Program-made: the position numbers and the translations under genes
Part shown: positions 7,632 to 63,460 of the stretch, one piece after another
How the letters are laid out: each line of letters starts with the position of its first letter
Numbering within the stretch: position 1 is the stretch's first letter
The notes under the pieces: model-generated
Database searches by the model: none
What the model was told of the DNA's origin: nothing
Seen by the model: only the letters and a program-made list of their open reading frames with translations
NCBI GenBank assembly: GCA_022181065.1
Contig: BQMY01000075.1
Span: 124,001-188,000, forward strand
Source: Melioribacteraceae bacterium
GTDB lineage: Bacteria; Bacteroidota; Ignavibacteria; Ignavibacteriales; Melioribacteraceae
Reading direction: 5' to 3'
DNA length: 64,000 bases

Positions 7632-9575
7632 ATGGGTAAGATTATAGGAATTGACCTCGGGACCACCAACTCGTGTGTGGCAGTGATGGAAGGAAATGAA
7701 CCAGTTGTTATACCTAACGCTGAGGGTGCAAGAACTACTCCTTCTGTAGTAGCGTTCGCAAAAAATGATGAAAGACTAATTGGTCAGCCTGCTAAAAGAC
7801 AAGCAGTTACCAATCCCGCAAATACAATATTTTCCATAAAAAGATTTATGGGAAACAGAATTGATGAAGTTCAGGGAGAAATTCACGAAGTACCTTACAA
7901 AGTAGTTGGCGGTGACAATAATTCAGCGCGTGTTGACATCAACGGCAGATTATATTCGCCACCCGAAATAAGCGCAATGGTGCTTCAGAAAATGAAAAAA
8001 ACAGCTGAAGATTATCTTGGTCAGGAAGTAACCGAAGCGGTTATTACTGTTCCGGCTTATTTCAATGACGCGCAGCGTCAGGCTACAAAAGACGCAGGTG
8101 AGATTGCAGGACTTTCAGTTCGCAGAATAATCAACGAACCTACTGCTGCCGCTTTATCATACGGTTTGGACAAGAAAAACAAAGAACAGAAAGTTGCGGT
8201 ATATGACCTCGGTGGTGGTACTTTTGATATTTCAGTTATGCAGCTTGGTGAAGGTGTTTTTGAAGTAATGTCAACTAATGGTGATACTCACCTTGGTGGT
8301 GACGACTTCGACCAGAGACTTATCGATTTTCTTGCTGACGAATTTAACAAGCAGGAAGGTGTTGACCTTCGCAAAGACCCGATGGCGTTACAGAGATTAA
8401 AAGAAGCTGCAGAAAAAGCAAAAATTGAGCTTTCTTCATCGATGCAGACTGATGTAAATCTTCCTTTTATAACTGCTACGGCAGATGGTCCGAAACACTT
8501 GAATATTTCAATTTCCCGTTCAAAATTTGAGCAGCTGGTAGACGACCTGATTGAAAAAACTGTCGCGCCTTGTGAAAACGCATTGAAGGATGCCGGTTTG
8601 ACAGCTTCACAGGTTGATGAAGTTATTCTTGTTGGTGGTTCAACACGTATTCCTAAAGTTCAGGAAGTTGTTAAAAAAGTATTTGGTAAAGAACCTCACA
8701 AAGGTGTGAATCCTGATGAAGTTGTCGCTATTGGCGCGGCAATTCAGGGTGGTGTGCTTGCAGGTGATGTAAAAGATGTTCTACTTCTTGATGTTACTCC
8801 GCTTTCACTTGGTATTGAGACTTACGGTGGTGTGATGACCAAACTTATTGAAGCGAACACAACAATCCCGACAAAAAAATCTGAAGTCTTTTCAACCGCA
8901 GCCGACAATCAGCCTTCTGTTGAAATTCATATTCTTCAGGGTGAAAGGTCGATGGCGAACGATAACAGAACTCTTGGTCGTTTCCACCTTGATGGAATTC
9001 CACCTGCGCCACGCGGTGTACCTCAGATTGAAGTAACTTTCGATATTGACGCAAACGGTATTCTGCATGTTTCCGCGAAAGATAAAGCTACAAGCAAGGA
9101 GCAGAGCATCAGAATTACTTCTTCAAGCGGTTTATCTGAAGATGAAATCGAAAAAATGAAGGAAGCTGCAAAAGCTAACGCCGCTGAAGACAAGAAGAAA
9201 AAAGAAGCTGTGGAAGTGAAAAATCAGGCTGATAATCTTGTTTTCCAGACTAAAAAGCAGATCACCGAAATGGGTGATAAAATGCCGGCTGACGCAAAAG
9301 CTAAACTTGAAGCCGAAATCAAGAAAGTTGAAGAAGCGCTTGCTTCAAATGATACTGATACTATTAAATCAGCAACAGACAGCCTTAACAAGGTTTGGAA
9401 CGACATAGCTCAGAATCTTTATCAGCAGGCAGATCCGCAGCAGGGTGGTCCGCAGGATCCTAATGCAGGTGCCGGTCAGCAACAGCAGCAAGCCGCAAAC
9501 GATGGTCAGGCAAAGAAAGATAAAGCTGACGACGTTGAGGATGCCTCTTACGAAGTTGTTGATGAAGATAAATAA
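7632..9575 (+). CDS. dnaK: Molecular chaperone DnaK (Hsp70)
   Basis: Cytoplasmic ATP-dependent chaperone acting with DnaJ and GrpE. The N-terminus [20 protein letters not shown], the [20 protein letters not shown] segment, the phosphate-2 loop [12 protein letters not shown] and [11 protein letters not shown] define the nucleotide-binding domain (to about residue 385). The linker [16 protein letters not shown] leads to the substrate-binding domain and helical lid; the tail is Gln/Gly-rich and ends in an acidic [15 protein letters not shown]-like segment, as usual in bacteria. 647 aa is normal. Unlike many genomes no grpE or dnaJ follows; it stands alone between a sigma-54-like promoter and a repeat-split terminator. 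Confidence 0.98.
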
Positions 9576-9666: not shown

Positions 9667-9927
9667 GGTTTTACAACAAACTTAGCCGGACTAATAATCC
9701 GGCTCAGACTGTTAACAAAATCGTTTCGTTATAAAGTCCTCCTTAGAAGGAGGTGGATTCCGACGTAAGACGGAGGATGATTTTTTTTACTTTTTCATGA
9801 CTTTTGGTCATCCCCCATCACAAAATCCGCCAATGGCGGAGTGATTTCCCCCTTCGGAAGGGGGACTTGAAAAAAAACAATCAGGTTTTACAATAAACTT
9901 AGCCGGACTAACACTCCGGCTTTTTTT
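9667..9927 (+). repeat. Terminator-split repeat element, copy 1 (direct repeats + palindrome-ended core)
   Basis: Two 38-nt direct repeats (9667-9704 and 9884-9921; 35 of 38 identical) each hold the stem-loop AGCCGG-N9-CCGGCT and enclose a 179-bp core. The core has inverted ends that are themselves hairpins: AAGTCCTCCTTAGAAGGAGG (9734-9753) and CCCCCTTCGGAAGGGGGACT (9848-9867), plus an inner TCCGCC-AAT-GGCGGA hairpin. Similar cores occur at 50420-50622 (same strand) and 59340-59520 (opposite strand). No gene is present in the 433-nt gap after dnaK. Confidence 0.75.
9901..9927 (+). terminator. Intrinsic terminator downstream of dnaK (distal stem-loop)
   Basis: AGCCGG (9901-9906), 9-nt loop, CCGGCT (9916-9921) followed by a run of seven T. 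The gene-proximal copy of the same stem-loop (9684-9704) has no T-run. Confidence 0.7.
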
Positions 9928-37279: not shown

Positions 37280-37770
37280 TATGGTAAAGACTGGATTCCA
37301 GCCCCTCCTAAGGCGGGTAAACTTCGCAGGAATGACAAAAAAGGATAATTCCGTTAAGGGTGAGGTGGAAAAGAAGCTTGAATGAGTTTTAGAGACGCCA
37401 TATGGTTCGAGAGCCTCACCAACCTAATGGCGTCTTTACGGTGAAAGGATAAGAAATTATGGATTACTGCGCCCATCTGAGACGGCTAAACGCGGAAATG
37501 ACACTGGTTATAAGCTTTGTCATGCCCTTGAATCCGCCATTGGCGGAGGGCATCCGGTTTTGAGAATCAGACACCAAGAACCCATCCTAAACCTGTGCGC
37601 CTCAGGAGCATCCTTCCCTTTAGTAAAGGGAAGGACTTTTAAAAAGTTAACTACAATATTTTTTCTCCCCTCCATTTGACAAAGGGAGGGTTCGGATGGT
37701 AGCATCGCGAAAAACGATAATGACAAGTAAAAAACAACATAAAACAGGGGAGTTGTCGCAGAATTCCACC
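37280..37770. repeat. Intergenic repeat island
   Basis: No gene is seen between 37236 and 37787. The stretch is a patchwork of dispersed repeats: ACTGGATTCC ... GGAATGACA (37284-37337), a hairpin with conserved loop (37393-37435), TGTCATGCCC ... GGGCATCC (37518-37565, with inner TCCGCC-ATT-GGCGGA), and a module AACCCATCC ... AAGGACTTTT (37579-37640) containing the palindrome CTTCCCTTTAGTAAAGGGAAG, whose inverse recurs at 63233-63286. The 18-mer at 37589-37606 recurs exactly at 50559-50576. Confidence 0.6.
37393..37435. repeat. Hairpin with conserved GGTTCGAG loop, copy 1
   Basis: Perfect 9-bp stem AGACGCCAT (37393-37401) / ATGGCGTCT (37427-37435). The enclosed GGTTCGAGAGCCTCACC and ACCTA recur at 63310-63334 inside a different stem. 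Inner pairing GAG/CTC and GGTT/AACC is possible. Confidence 0.5.
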
Positions 37771-50387: not shown

Positions 50388-50415
50388 TAAAAAAAACCGG
50401 GTCTAAAACCCGGTT
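50388..50415 (-). terminator. Intrinsic terminator of the S66 peptidase gene (distal stem-loop)
   Basis: Reading leftward, AACCGGGT ... ACCCGGTT is followed by a run of eight T. The gene-proximal copy (50623-50643) lacks such a run on this strand. Confidence 0.65.
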
Positions 50416-50647
50416 TAATCTTCTGACAAAATCATTTCGTTACAAAGTCCTCCTTGGAAGGAGGTGGATTCCGACGTAAGTTGACTTATTCCATTTTTTG
50501 TGACTTTTGGTCATCCCCCATCAAAAAATCCGCCTATGGCGGAGTGATTTCCCCCTTCAAACCTGTGCGCCTCAGGCGTAAGGGGGACGTGAACATCAAC
50601 AACCAAGTTTTTCAACATTCTCAACCGGGCTAAAAACCCGGATTAAT
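50388..50647. repeat. Terminator-split repeat element, copy 2
   Basis: Direct repeats 50395-50419 and 50623-50647 (21 of 25 identical) each hold an AACCGGG ... CCCGG stem-loop and enclose a 203-bp core that matches copy 1 in the same orientation from ACAAAATC through AAGTCCTCCTT, GGTGGATTCCGACGTAAG, TTTTGGTCATCCCCCATCA and GGCGGAGTGATTTCCCCCTT. The right-hand hairpin is interrupted by a 22-nt insert including the 18-mer AAACCTGTGCGCCTCAGG. No gene in the 398-nt gap. Confidence 0.75.
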
Positions 50648-50665: not shown

Positions 50666-51607
50666 CTAAATTACAGCGGCCTCGGTAAATTCAATAAACT
50701 TTCTGGAAGTATTCAATTTAACATTGAGACCATAAGGGATAGTAATGTTCTGTCTGATATGTCCATGCTTAATATTGTAGAAAACAGGAATATCCATATC
50801 TGTAAAGAAATCGGCAATAACTTCATTTAGTGAAAGAGTAGCGTTTTTATCATCATCGTCATAACAATCAACAAATCTGCCGAGGATGATACCTTTCGCT
50901 TTTTCAAAAACACCGGCGAGACGCAATTGGTTAAACATTCTGTCAACCCGGAAGGGTGCTTCACCAATTTCTTCGATCAGCAATATTTTGTCAGTATAAT
51001 CCGGTTCATATTTGGTACCCAGGAGGGAACAGATCAGGGACAGATTACCACCAATTATCTGACCTTCACTTCTCCCATGCGAAAGGATATAAAAGTTTTC
51101 GTCTTCGGGGTTGCGGAGTTTTCCAATTTTGTTTTTTGATGTAAGGGTTGACCAGAAAATTTCTTCCGCAAATGGATCAACTTCGTCATGGAAATCAACA
51201 GCAACCATTGGTCCGGCAAATGTTACCAGGCCGGTATATTTCATGAAGGCAGTCTGTAGAGCTGTGATATCACTATAGCCGACAAATATCTTCGGGTTTT
51301 TCTTGATCAGATCGTAATCAATCCGATCCAGCAATCTTCCCGAACCGTACCCGCCTCTTACACAAAAAATTGCTTTTACTTCTTTATCGCCGAACATGTC
51401 GTGTAAGTCCTCAAGGCGTTGATCGTCAGTGCCGGCAAGATATCCTCTCTGCGATCCGACATTCTTTCCAACTTTAACGTTGTATCCCATATTTTCGAGA
51501 TAAGATACACCTTTATTTATACGTGATAAATCCGCTGGAAGTGAAGCGGGAGTTACCAATCCAATCAAATCACCTTTGTCAAGTTTACGGGGTTTTACGA
51601 TATTCAT
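50666..51607 (-). CDS. S66-family peptidase (LD-carboxypeptidase-like)
   Basis: Serine peptidase family that trims murein tetrapeptides or cleaves microcin-like peptides. N-terminus LIGLVTPASL, FCVRGGYGSGRLL and the nucleophile Ser112 in VGYSDITAL are typical; Glu and His of the Ser-Glu-His triad are expected in ILLIEEIGEAPFRVDRM and FYNIKHGHIRQN. 313 aa from the ATG at 51607; a GTG three codons upstream is possible. Cytoplasmic, as for LdcA in murein recycling. Transcribed alone, with the repeat-split terminator behind it. Confidence 0.9.
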   Translation of the reverse strand: MNIVKPRKLDKGDLIGLVTPASLPADLSRINKGVSYLENMGYNVKVGKNVGSQRGYLAGTDDQRLEDLHDMFGDKEVKAIFCVRGGYGSGRLLDRIDYDLIKKNPKIFVGYSDITALQTAFMKYTGLVTFAGPMVAVDFHDEVDPFAEEIFWSTLTSKNKIGKLRNPEDENFYILSHGRSEGQIIGGNLSLICSLLGTKYEPDYTDKILLIEEIGEAPFRVDRMFNQLRLAGVFEKAKGIILGRFVDCYDDDDKNATLSLNEVIADFFTDMDIPVFYNIKHGHIRQNITIPYGLNVKLNTSRKFIEFTEAAVI

Positions 51608-51753
51608 ACAATCCACAACTAATTTAAAAATGTCTTAAAATAAACTATTTATCGGGAATAGATATTCACTCAAGTGTAAAAGATATAAGATTTCTAATAT
51701 ATAATCTTAACTATATCTTTGCAAGCAAAAGGCGCAATATATCATTCAGTTGA

Positions 51754-57541: not shown

Positions 57542-59308
57542 ATGCTAAAAAAACTTTCTCTCCTGTTCGTTCTATTGTTTTCAATCCAGAGTTTCGCGCA
57601 GTTTGGTATGGATCTCAACCTTGTCAAAGCTTCATATTATACTTCTTTCGATCAGCTACATCCCGGAAGTGAAGTAAAATTTGCTGTTCAGCTTGATATT
57701 GAAGAGACCTGGCACATAAATTCAAGTAAACCCAAAGATGATTTTCTTATCGGCACTTCTGTAAGTTTTGAAGGTGGCGAAAATTTTACTGTATCAAATC
57801 TGACATTTCCTCATGCTGAGGAGTTGACTTTCAGTTTCTCGGAAAATCCTGTTTCTGTGTACGAAGGTATAGTGTATATAACTGCTCTTATCAAAGTTAA
57901 GGAAGGTCTCGCCGCCGGTTCTTATGATTTGCCGGTAAGTATCGAATATCAGGCATGTAATGACGCGAGTTGTATGCCGCCAACCAATATCGATACGGTA
58001 TTATCACTTAATGTTGTAAGTACTACAACTCCTGTAAGTGAAATAAATAATGAAATTTTCAGCAAAGTTGATATAGATTATTCTGCACCGGTTAGTGAAG
58101 ATGGTGACGATGAAGATTCGCTCGGCAAAACCCTCGAAGAGAGTGGATTGTTCATAAGTCTGATTCTAATATTTCTCGGTGGTTTGGCGTTAAACCTGAC
58201 TCCTTGTGTATATCCGTTAATTCCAATTACAATCGGGTATTTCGGTGGACAAAGTGAAGGTAACACCGGTAAATTGTTTATGTTGGGTCTGTTTTATGTT
58301 CTTGGTATGGCGCTAACATACTCGGTTGTGGGAGTTGTAACTTCACTTTCAGGAGCGGTATTTGGCTCATTAATGCAGAACCCGATTGTGATTATTGTGA
58401 TCGCTGCTGTGTTAGTTGCTCTGGCATTTAGTATGTTCGGAATGTACGAATTCAAGATGCCTGACAGTTGGGTTACAAAAGCGGGTGGCGCGAAATCTGG
58501 AGTACTCGGCGCCTTTTTTATGGGTCTGACAATGGGTATCGTCGCGGCACCTTGTATTGGTCCATTCGTGCTTGGATTGGTTACAGCGGTTGCGGCTAAA
58601 GGTGATCCGGTTTACGGATTTTTTATGTTCTTCACCCTTGCGGTCGGACTGGGAACACCGTACCTGTTCCTTGCTATATTCTCAGGAAAATTAAAAGCAC
58701 TACCAAGAGCCGGATTCTGGATGGAAGCCGTAAAACATATATTCGGATTTATCCTCATTGGTATGGCTATTTATTTCATTATCCCGATTTTACCTAAATC
58801 GTTCAGCGGTTACGTTCTTCCGGTATATATGCTCCTTGCGGCTATCTACCTGCTTCTGTTTGACAAACTAGCGAATAACCAGAAGGGATTCAGGATATTC
58901 AAATCTGTCTTTTCTGTCGTAATTATCGCCCTTGCTGTCTGGATGTTGTGGCCGGTAGAGAAGAAATCACCCGACTGGCAGAATTTCACAATCGCGGAAT
59001 ATGAAGCATCTGTAAATTCAGGAGACAAGATCATCATCGATTTTTACGCAGATTGGTGTGTGCCTTGTAAAGAGTTGGACGCACTTACATTCTCTGACCA
59101 GCGCGTTATTGATAAATCGAAAGAGTTTATCAACTACAAGGTTGATATGACAAAATCAATGTCGGAAACCACAGAGGAAATCAGAGATAAATTCAGGATT
59201 ATCGGTATGCCCACAATCATATTTATAGATGAAAGCGGCAAAGAAGTTAAAAGATTAACAGGGTTTGTAAATGCCGATGAATTTCTGAAAATAATGCAGG
59301 ATATTTAA
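57542..59308 (+). CDS. dsbD: DsbD-like thiol:disulfide interchange protein
   Basis: 588 aa. Signal peptide, N-terminal disulfide-corrector domain (about 30-155, IEETWHINSSKPKDDFL, EYQACNDASCMPP with its Cys pair), eight membrane segments of the CcdA/DsbD core (LNLTPCVYPLIPITIGYFGG and IVAAPCIGPFVLGLVTA hold the redox Cys), and a C-terminal periplasmic thioredoxin domain with FYADWCVPCKELD. It carries electrons from cytoplasmic thioredoxin to the periplasm, needed to keep apocytochrome c heme sites reduced, fitting the octaheme cytochrome in this window. Followed by the repeat-split terminator (copy 3). Confidence 0.94.
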   Translation: MLKKLSLLFVLLFSIQSFAQFGMDLNLVKASYYTSFDQLHPGSEVKFAVQLDIEETWHINSSKPKDDFLIGTSVSFEGGENFTVSNLTFPHAEELTFSFSENPVSVYEGIVYITALIKVKEGLAAGSYDLPVSIEYQACNDASCMPPTNIDTVLSLNVVSTTTPVSEINNEIFSKVDIDYSAPVSEDGDDEDSLGKTLEESGLFISLILIFLGGLALNLTPCVYPLIPITIGYFGGQSEGNTGKLFMLGLFYVLGMALTYSVVGVVTSLSGAVFGSLMQNPIVIIVIAAVLVALAFSMFGMYEFKMPDSWVTKAGGAKSGVLGAFFMGLTMGIVAAPCIGPFVLGLVTAVAAKGDPVYGFFMFFTLAVGLGTPYLFLAIFSGKLKALPRAGFWMEAVKHIFGFILIGMAIYFIIPILPKSFSGYVLPVYMLLAAIYLLLFDKLANNQKGFRIFKSVFSVVIIALAVWMLWPVEKKSPDWQNFTIAEYEASVNSGDKIIIDFYADWCVPCKELDALTFSDQRVIDKSKEFINYKVDMTKSMSETTEEIRDKFRIIGMPTIIFIDESGKEVKRLTGFVNADEFLKIMQDI

Positions 59309-59570
59309 TTATAAGCCCCGTGAGATAAAATATTTAAATTGTTTTTTAGTCCCCCTTTTGAAGGGGGAAATCACTCCGCGGCAGGCGGATGGTGATGGGG
59401 GATGACTAAAATTATGGAGAACCAAGTATCATCCTCCGTCTTTCGACTAACATCGAAAGCCACCTCCTTCGAAGGAGGACAATTAGAGCGGAGCGAACTT
59501 GTTTTCTGCTTGAGGCGTTTAATCAAAGGCCCCGTGAGATAAAAGTTTCAAATCGGGGTTTACTTTTTTT
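59307..59570. repeat. Terminator-split repeat element, copy 3 (core inverted)
   Basis: Imperfect direct repeats at 59307-59339 and 59521-59553 (27 of 33 identical; GCCCCGTGAGATAAAA exact) enclose a core in inverted orientation relative to copy 1: CCCCCTTTTGAAGGGGG, AAATCACTCCGC, GGTGATGGGGGATGAC, ATCATCCTCCGTCTT and CCACCTCCTTCGAAGGAGGAC are all recognisable. The left direct repeat begins in the dsbD stop codon and has lost the 3' arm of the stem. No gene in the 380-nt gap before korA. Confidence 0.75.
59529..59570 (+). terminator. Intrinsic terminator of nadE-dsbD (distal stem-loop)
   Basis: CCCCG-TGA ... TCA-AAT-CGGGG (59530-59558) followed by TTTAC and seven T. Confidence 0.6.
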
Positions 59571-63109: not shown

Positions 63110-63460
63110 AAAGTCTCAATACCCAATAAATAATCCTCCGTTTTTCTACTATCGTAGAAATCCACCCCTGGGAACCTGTTCAGAAAGCATTCGGTAGGAG
63201 GACTTTTAAAACCAGCACAATTGCCAAGGGTCAAAAGTCCTTCCCTTTAATAAAGGGAAGTCCGCCCCAGGCGGATAGGATGGGTTAGTTTAATTTCATG
63301 CTGTTAACGGGGGTTCGAGTGCCTCACCCACCTATGATGGTCGTTAATCTATGATTGTTAGTTTTAAGTGAAACACGAAAAACAAAAACTGGATACCTCC
63401 CGATTTTACTGGGGGACACTGACATAGCTGTTTTTTAACAAGGGGCTGAGTCCCTTGTTA
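63110..63460. repeat. Intergenic repeat cluster (degenerate copies)
   Basis: The 411-nt gap 63089-63499 has no gene. It holds a degenerate inverted copy of the palindrome-ended core (ATAATCCTCCGTTTTTC ... AAATCCACC, then an insert, then AGGAGGACTTTT at 63197-63208), the module AAAAGTCCTTCCCTTTA ... AGGATGGGTT (63233-63286) that is the inverse of 37579-37640, the GGTTCGAG hairpin copy 2 (63304-63347), an ACTGGATACC ... CTGACA unit, and a perfect hairpin TAACAAGGG-N7-CCCTTGTTA (63436-63460). Confidence 0.6.
63304..63347. repeat. Hairpin with conserved GGTTCGAG loop, copy 2
   Basis: Stem TTAACG (63304-63309) / CGTTAA (63342-63347) around GGTTCGAGTGCCTCACC ... ACCTATGATGG. The loop matches 37404-37430 whereas the stem is different but still complementary. 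Confidence 0.45.

Follow-up and report, generated by a model that had tools for sequence, protein, structure and literature searches.

A short IS1182-type element and related transposons that lie between direct copies of terminator hairpins

The element described here recurs between direct repeats that contain a terminator stem-loop, and sequence comparison with related full-length transposons demonstrates that, when members of this group insert, hairpins of any length are duplicated in full. As the best explanation of the data as a whole, we consider it highly probable that the element is a MITE, a non-autonomous derivative of the IS1182 group, that targets the stem-loop of intrinsic terminators and duplicates the hairpin upon insertion. 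The MITE is apparently new, of a known family, and a mode of insertion in which the hairpin sets the length of the duplication is apparently undocumented. The original prediction, made from the letters of one DNA stretch, was of a mobile element with terminators as its entry sites and duplication of the stem-loop as the result. This core claim is supported, with the difference that the element enters at both feet of the hairpin and not, as had been suggested as one possibility, between the stem and the T-run.

Three sites in the window

The window is the whole stretch of 64,000 nucleotides that was analysed. Its three sites comprise the following features.

Site 1
7632-9575, + strand: HSP70/DnaK gene, upstream of the left hairpin
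9667..9684, + strand: right-end-like stretch GGTTTTACAACAAACTTA, just outside the left hairpin (right-end motif match)
9682..9704, + strand: left terminator hairpin copy TTAGCCGGACTAATAATCCGGCT (repeat score 19, p 0.0006, -10.7 kcal/mol)
9704..9901, + strand: MITE, IS1182-type, non-autonomous, 198 bp, with left end TCAGACTGTTAACAAAATC and right end AGGTTTTACAATAAACTTA
9899..9921, + strand: right terminator hairpin copy TTAGCCGGACTAACACTCCGGCT, a direct repeat of the left copy, followed by a T-run

Site 2
50395..50419, - strand: gene-distal hairpin copy (repeat score 18, p 0.0006, -11.7 kcal/mol)
50418..50622, + strand: MITE with a diverged left end and a hairpin-tip insert AAACCTGTGCGCCTCAGGCGTAAG (read directly and from pattern matches)
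50623..50647, - strand: gene-proximal hairpin copy, a direct repeat of 50395-50419
50666-51616, - strand: S66 peptidase gene, beside the site

Site 3
ORF end at 59308: DsbD gene, before the site
59304..59348, + strand: gene-proximal copy of repeat D8, decayed, 3' arm of the hairpin gone (-0.3 kcal/mol)
59348..59482, - strand: element core in opposite orientation, without recognisable ends
59518..59562, + strand: distal copy of repeat D8, hairpin intact, followed by a T-run (-15.4 kcal/mol)

For repeat scoring the boundaries of the three sites were placed by hand, and the null consisted of mismatched flank pairs, with left and right flanks taken from different copies. Repeats bearing the terminator stem-loop had been predicted to flank the element at every site, which is the case at sites 1 and 2 (p about 0.0006 each) and only partly at site 3, where one copy has decayed. 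The stem-loops likewise match each other within sites 1 and 2 as claimed, and fail to do so at site 3 because the proximal copy is unfolded (-0.3 vs -15.4 kcal/mol) and the element ends are missing. D8 itself is an imperfect repeat of 45 nt with 78% identity, and its score of 25 exceeds all null pairs. The distal hairpin of site 2 has an A-run on its outer side, corresponding to a T-run on the strand of the S66 peptidase gene. That the T-run accompanies the distal copy only, an observation of the original prediction, is explained by geometry: with the hairpin as the duplicated unit, the outer A-run remains beside the left copy and the outer T-run beside the right one.

For site 1, a repeat of 38 nt had been proposed. 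The repeat is confirmed in a shorter form, as the first 18 nt resemble the right end of the element and the hairpin repeat proper comprises about 19-23 nt; the right-end-like stretch at 9667..9684 is possibly the remnant of an earlier insertion. The MITE at this site (locus L001) aligns with the family consensus over its full length and folds as a single long imperfect hairpin (-56.9 kcal/mol, z -2.65). It belongs to the 59 two-ended copies described below; sites 2 and 3 are outside that set, site 2 because its left end has diverged.

Group IIC introns insert beside the stems of terminators, and a retroelement with a similar preference for terminator stem-loops was therefore considered. An Rfam scan of the window returned no family at the gathering threshold, so no group IIC intron RNA was recognised, and the inverted ends of the element are those of a DDE transposon. 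To our knowledge, duplication of a whole stem is not a product of the group IIC intron pathway, and we regard the chance that such a retroelement accounts for these sites as close to negligible.

Ends, copies and structure of the MITE

The left end TCAGACTGTTGACAAAG and the right end AGGTTTTTCAACAATCTCA of the MITE are both located outside the core that had originally been drawn. The motif AAGTCC(T/C)CCTT, previously taken for the element ends, forms the ends of an internal palindrome, and the true IS1182-type ends are found about 30 nt further out. The MITE is asymmetric, a long imperfect palindrome being enclosed by the left end TCAGACTGTTGACAAAGTCATTTCGTT and the right end AACCAGGTTTTTCAACAATCTCA. 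It is short (about 170-245 bp), too small for a transposase gene, and multicopy.

A whole-genome BLAST search located the element in at least 41 places, 40 of 203 candidates having been scored. With up to 3 mismatches allowed, a core pattern of 18 bases occurs at 103 places in the genome, against a single place for the reversed pattern, and part of the 103 represent a diverged group without outer ends. In the collected loci, 128 core hits were reduced to 111 upon removal of identical ones, some possibly still being the same place counted twice; 59 of these are copies with both ends, aligned at 169-244 nt. Identity between nearest neighbours reaches 97.5% (median 93%), which indicates copies of mixed age. 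Six of 57 copies score below half of the maximal consensus score and their ends are thus doubtful.

Outside its own genome, the core was absent from all 37 relatives (38 genomes searched, E 1e-5). The left end, with up to two mismatches allowed, was absent from 162 of the 163 other genomes of the order, with one two-mismatch match in the remaining genome, and the exact left end had no occurrence in a collection of 84,980 species.

Several additional structures were noticed in or beside the element. Five tandem core copies without outer ends, with a period of about 210 bp, are present at L072 (G000:C93, about 51.8-52.7 kb). A hairpin insert AACCTGTGCGCCTCAGGCGTAAG, or its variant CCCGAA..TTTCGGGACAGG, occupies loops of internal hairpins in the window (about 50558-50583) and at many loci, and may be a separate repeat unit. 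At L010, L015, L017, L023, L056, L058 and L061 the element is broken at internal hairpins, at contig ends, by a sequence starting with CAATGGCGTCAACTTA or CAATGCTGTCAACTTA that resembles the terminus of an insertion sequence. Finally, the repeat CTTCCCTTTAGTAAAGGGAAGGACTTTT is found in the window at 37613-37640 and 63233-63260 (96% inverted match), and a similar stretch adjoins the MITE in the left flanks of L037, L053, L060 and L066.

Flanking repeats and gene context

Flanks of sufficient length were available for 57 of the 59 MITE copies, the other two being dropped for short flanks. A direct repeat scoring above 95% of the null, and starting no more than 8 nt from the element on both sides, was found for 34 of the 57 (above 99% of the null for 25), while the remaining 23 have no direct repeat above the 95% level. 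Among the 34 repeats, 32 fold at -3 kcal/mol or better, as compared to 18% of control windows. A probably spurious case among the 34 is the AT-rich repeat at L052, with 67% identity over 63 nt. At least four A among the eight outer bases on the left were counted in 23 of the 34 and at least four T among the eight on the right in 22, with one or the other in 30. Hairpins as such are a permissive measure beside the MITE, as 20 of 114 shuffled flanks also have one. The genome-wide pattern of flanking repeats is not due to chance, and across copies genome-wide the stem-loops resemble each other within a site and differ between sites, as the original prediction had stated for the window.

Repeat score rises with the conservation of the MITE copy (rho 0.39, p 0.002, n=57), the older, more diverged copies tending to lower repeat scores. 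Within the 34 copies with a repeat, there was no significant correlation between repeat identity and the conservation of the copy (rho 0.22, p 0.22).

At 50 of the 59 copies, a raw count without a random-site control, an ORF of 100 aa or more has its 3' end within 160 nt and facing the element; it is on the left only in 18, on the right only in 17, on both sides in 15 and on neither in 9. No copy (0/59) is inside an ORF of at least 150 aa. Both orientations relative to the host gene are about equally frequent, so that the variable orientation deduced from the three sites applies more widely. Copies without a flanking repeat (23/57) or away from a gene 3' end (9/59) had been named in advance as evidence against the prediction, and such evidence is thus partly present. 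Folding energies of the proximal and distal hairpins, compared at 19 of the 35 copies with a single gene end, were mostly equal or close to equal, with a few differing in either direction and no trend.

A right-end-like stretch outside the left hairpin, as at 9667-9684 of the window, was also noticed at L025 and L044, i.e. in 3 of 57 copies where 0.04 would be expected from shuffles. The repeat at L044 spans about 42 nt or more and reaches into the end of the upstream ORF. Serial insertion at one terminator and a repair event are two candidate origins of these stretches.

The flanking repeats also bear on another reading, in which a RAYT (HUH) enzyme moves the palindromic core, a REP/REPIN-like sequence, and the hairpins on either side have nothing to do with this movement. 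The core does form a long, imperfect palindrome whose own ends match, and core-like copies without outer ends exist, a tandem array included. However, 59 copies share IS1182-type outer ends, many of them with hairpin repeats, and the absence of target duplication expected from REPIN/RAYT movement is contradicted by the 34 of 57 copies with repeats above 95% of the null; HUH transposition, as far as we know, makes no target duplication. A REPIN-like element is for these reasons an unlikely source of the pattern. A separate origin of the core would be compatible with the derivation of the MITE from the IS1182 group, which we favour.

The partner transposon and the search for a transposase

A transposon from the same bacterial family (L133) has the inverted repeats CAGACTGTTGACAAAGC and CAGGTTGTTGAAAAACCCTGC. 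The same protein is encoded at L154, in JABFGH010000009.1 from an Ignavibacteriae bacterium, which suggests that the MITE host likewise belongs to the Ignavibacteriota; both loci belong to a genus other than that of the MITE host. The MITE ends (left CAGACTGTTGACAAAGTC; right, as reverse complement, TGAGATTGTTGAAAAACCTGG) match those of L133/L154, so that the MITE shares its inverted ends with an autonomous transposon. The combined end score of L154 (33) is the highest among 58 transposons, followed by 32 for five Lentisphaera-type copies, with a median of 22, and exchanging left and right ends gives a higher score in just one of the 58. As judged from these end sequences, the MITE can be placed firmly in the transposon group of L154, and weakly next to L154 in particular. 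The partner protein is an IS1182 transposase (NF033551, E 2.3e-141, over the curated cut-off) with the domains PF13751 and PF05598.

At L133/L154 the flanking hairpin copies have identical stems with inverted loops (TCC vs GGA), as if one hairpin had been flipped during or after insertion.

A homologue of the partner transposase was absent from the MITE's own genome at E 1e-20. Across the order, PF13751, the IS1182 domain, matches in 31 of 160 genomes, the MITE host included. The single PF13751 gene of the host was rejected as the source, being frameshifted and having other ends (GGGGCTGACTAAAAAG), and so were its three PF01609 genes, one of which is the PF13751 gene while the other two have ends like CACTAGTGTCCGGTTAA. 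A DDE_Tnp_1 element whose ends resemble CACTAGTGTCCGGTTAA was seen twice, at L122 (G000:C76) and L124 (G000:C105), and the copy at L122 is apparently enclosed by the arms of an inverted repeat. The end motif TNAGANTGTTGANAAA has 26 matches in the host genome; five are away from known copies (C76, C77, C86, C89 and C129), and within the 550-620 nt inspected there, no transposon was present. A TIR-like stretch at a stop codon at L091 was taken as chance.

Hairpin duplication in the transposon group

Of 200 confirmed related loci, the best 80 were analysed, with hosts among the Bacillaceae, Lentisphaera, several Proteobacteria, a flavobacterium and others. Sixteen of the 80 were dropped for lack of both ends and six of the resulting 64 for short flanks, leaving 58 transposons. 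In 46 of these, a direct repeat scoring above 99% of the null (3,306 mismatched pairs) begins within 2 nt of the element. The offset is 0/0 in 44 of the 46, the repeat is perfect in 42, and the folding energy is -3 kcal/mol or better in 45. No two of the 46 have the same sequence, and their lengths are 15-33 nt (median 22). In every one of the 46, both ends of the repeat fall no more than 2 nt from the stem base, and this property together with the energy limit is satisfied by 45 of them as opposed to 30 of 992 neighbouring control windows. At least four of the eight outer bases are T on the right in 44 and A on the left in 40, runs that make these repeats terminator-like. A hairpin abuts both ends in 51 of the 58 transposons, a count to be read against a permissive shuffled control (32 of 116 flanks). 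When further plasmid copies were opened, six out of six had perfect hairpin repeats of 17-28 nt.

The 12 transposons that failed consist of L154, where the strict repeat test failed because of the inverted loop; L215, where a repeat is visible by eye and was missed by the test as the end caller had misplaced at least this one end; five with different hairpins on the two sides; and ambiguous cases. In the five (L160, L176, L181, L218 and L227) a hairpin is present at each end, but not the same one, which likely reflects exchange or recombination between two transposon copies.

An ordinary transposase might make a long staggered cut in linear DNA, with only those insertions surviving that span a terminator. 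Some insertion sequences do make duplications that are long or variable, and selection would purge insertions within genes, in agreement with the absence of MITE copies from longer ORFs reported above (0/59). Survival bias cannot account for both ends falling on the stem base, however: the repeats range from 15 to 33 nt and all 46 nevertheless match their hairpin with no more than 2 nt of difference at either end. We therefore consider a linear staggered cut improbable.

Empty sites

The flanks of four of the six plasmid copies were joined with one hairpin and searched in a plasmid collection, an empty site being a match in one piece with a span in the record equal to that of the query. For the Bacillus pumilus site, two records matched over 320 and 319 nt, with 99.4% and 98.4% identity. 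The Rhizobium leguminosarum site was covered to at least 80% by 109 records, the best full-length one among the matches listed being 98.8% identical. For Rhizobium binae there were 12 records with at least 80% coverage, the top one at 85.4% over 98% of the query. Five records matched the Bacillus subtilis site over all 320 nt, four of them at 100%, and two filled plasmids matched partly.

At all four plasmid sites searched, relatives without the transposon have a single hairpin. As there is one hairpin in the empty site and two in the filled site, the second copy arises on insertion. This bears directly on the view that two tandem terminators pre-existed and that the element merely sits between them. 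Paired terminators do occur in bacteria, and the five transposons with a different hairpin on each side (L160, L176, L181, L218 and L227) could be counted in favour of it. Against this, the hairpins match within a site, loops included, with 42 of 46 perfect, and the two pre-existing terminators that, according to the original prediction, would speak against duplication were not seen in the empty sites of these partner-transposon relatives. Tandem terminators are refuted for the transposons tested, and very improbable as a general account.

Mechanism

A DDE transposase joins both 3' ends of its element to the target at staggered positions, and the duplication equals the stagger. A stagger of 15-33 bp that matches the target hairpin in each case means that the hairpin defines the cut. 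The transposase would join each 3' end of the element to a 5' foot of the hairpin, one on either strand, and gap repair would then copy the whole hairpin on each side. The simplest setting for joining at the feet would be a palindrome extruded as a cruciform: the 5' feet are adjacent at the four-way junction at any stem length, so that one enzyme geometry could serve hairpins of all sizes. Joining at the hairpin feet is, from the sequences, well supported for this transposon group; extrusion and recognition of a cruciform are what we infer from it. The outer A- and T-runs would stay where they were and, with the hairpin duplicated, one copy would be beside the T-run of the gene, so that termination may survive.

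Transposase geometry normally dictates how long a target duplication is, and that length is fixed. Duplications of 15-33 bp, each as long as the hairpin of its target, are difficult to account for unless the cut is made in the folded hairpin. We think it likely, with less confidence than for the nature of the MITE, that the IS1182 group, present over several phyla, and its MITEs read DNA secondary structure in living cells, attacking the feet of extruded cruciforms, with the hairpin setting the duplication length and each insertion restoring the terminator of the gene. If true, these transposons would naturally report where terminators extrude cruciforms in living cells, and they would have a route to spread with little harm.

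Comparison with known systems

The MITE is similar to prokaryotic MITEs as reviewed (PMC10969869) in being short, multicopy and intergenic, with ends common to a transposon and a transcript that folds strongly; a target duplication above 95% of the null accompanies 34 of 57 copies and is lacking at 23. It differs from MITEs in general, as portrayed in the parts of that review consulted, in that a whole terminator hairpin, of varying size, is what is duplicated, and no terminator-duplicating MITE is named in those parts.

Among the closest known systems are IS1272 and TnSha1. IS1272 is of the IS1182 family and transposes by stem-loop replacement (PMC4923244; Wan et al. 2017, PMC5678879); according to the sections of the 2016 report consulted, IS1272 and TnSha1 delete the target hairpin, wholly or partly, without duplication (PMC4923244). 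The transposons studied here resemble them, on the same partial view of these sources, in having an IS1182-family transposase and inverted-repeat targets, several of them terminator hairpins, without a target sequence consensus. Unlike IS1272/TnSha1, where the hairpin is lost, they retain and duplicate the whole of it: at the four plasmid sites the hairpin is present twice in filled and once in empty sites, which is not the IS1272-type deletion.

Other members of the family vary. In the excerpts consulted, IS1182-related enzymes are described as acting with or without duplication or deletion and as possibly recognising DNA structure (PMC12056078), and two copies of the IS1182 element ISCaa15 have 4-bp direct repeats (PMC3196728), so that, as far as these excerpts go, fixed short duplications also occur in the family. 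A report of whole-hairpin duplication was absent from the full-text literature searched, a scope that lies outside ISfinder and most subscription journals.

Whole-stem-loop duplication has been drawn as a hypothetical pathway. As an alternative to the IS1272 replacement model, pathway b in Figure 13 of Wan et al. 2017 (PMC5678879) shows, in the portion consulted, a cruciform to whose 5' feet the 3' ends are joined, with the whole stem-loop duplicated, as in the mechanism proposed above. It is there a drawn alternative, with no example seen in that portion of the paper, whereas the present duplications are observed. Under pathway b the duplication should equal the stem-loop at any length, and each of the 46 transposon repeats, of 15-33 nt, stops no more than 2 nt from the base of its stem.

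Relatives of these transposons use palindromes in yet another way. Six IS1182 elements (L132, L135, L136, L138, L141 and L146, labelled by eye) are inserted in palindrome loops; they have the same transposase family and also reside in palindromes, with the difference that their flanks are the two arms of one palindrome, which resembles loop pathway c of Wan et al. as far as that source was consulted (PMC5678879). The centre of the palindrome is ACG at L132 and TTAA at L141. In a tree of 44 proteins, the 26 from hairpin-duplicating and the six from loop-inserting elements are separated by one change on one branch, a clustering rather than a dated origin, given that 12 rows are unlabelled, 20 of 71 loci were without a usable protein (17 with no matching long ORF, 3 with no ORF) and several branches are long; seven identical proteins had been merged. 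One transposase family would thus have three outcomes, in which the hairpin is deleted, its loop is entered or the whole of it is duplicated, and the choice among them is open to experiment.
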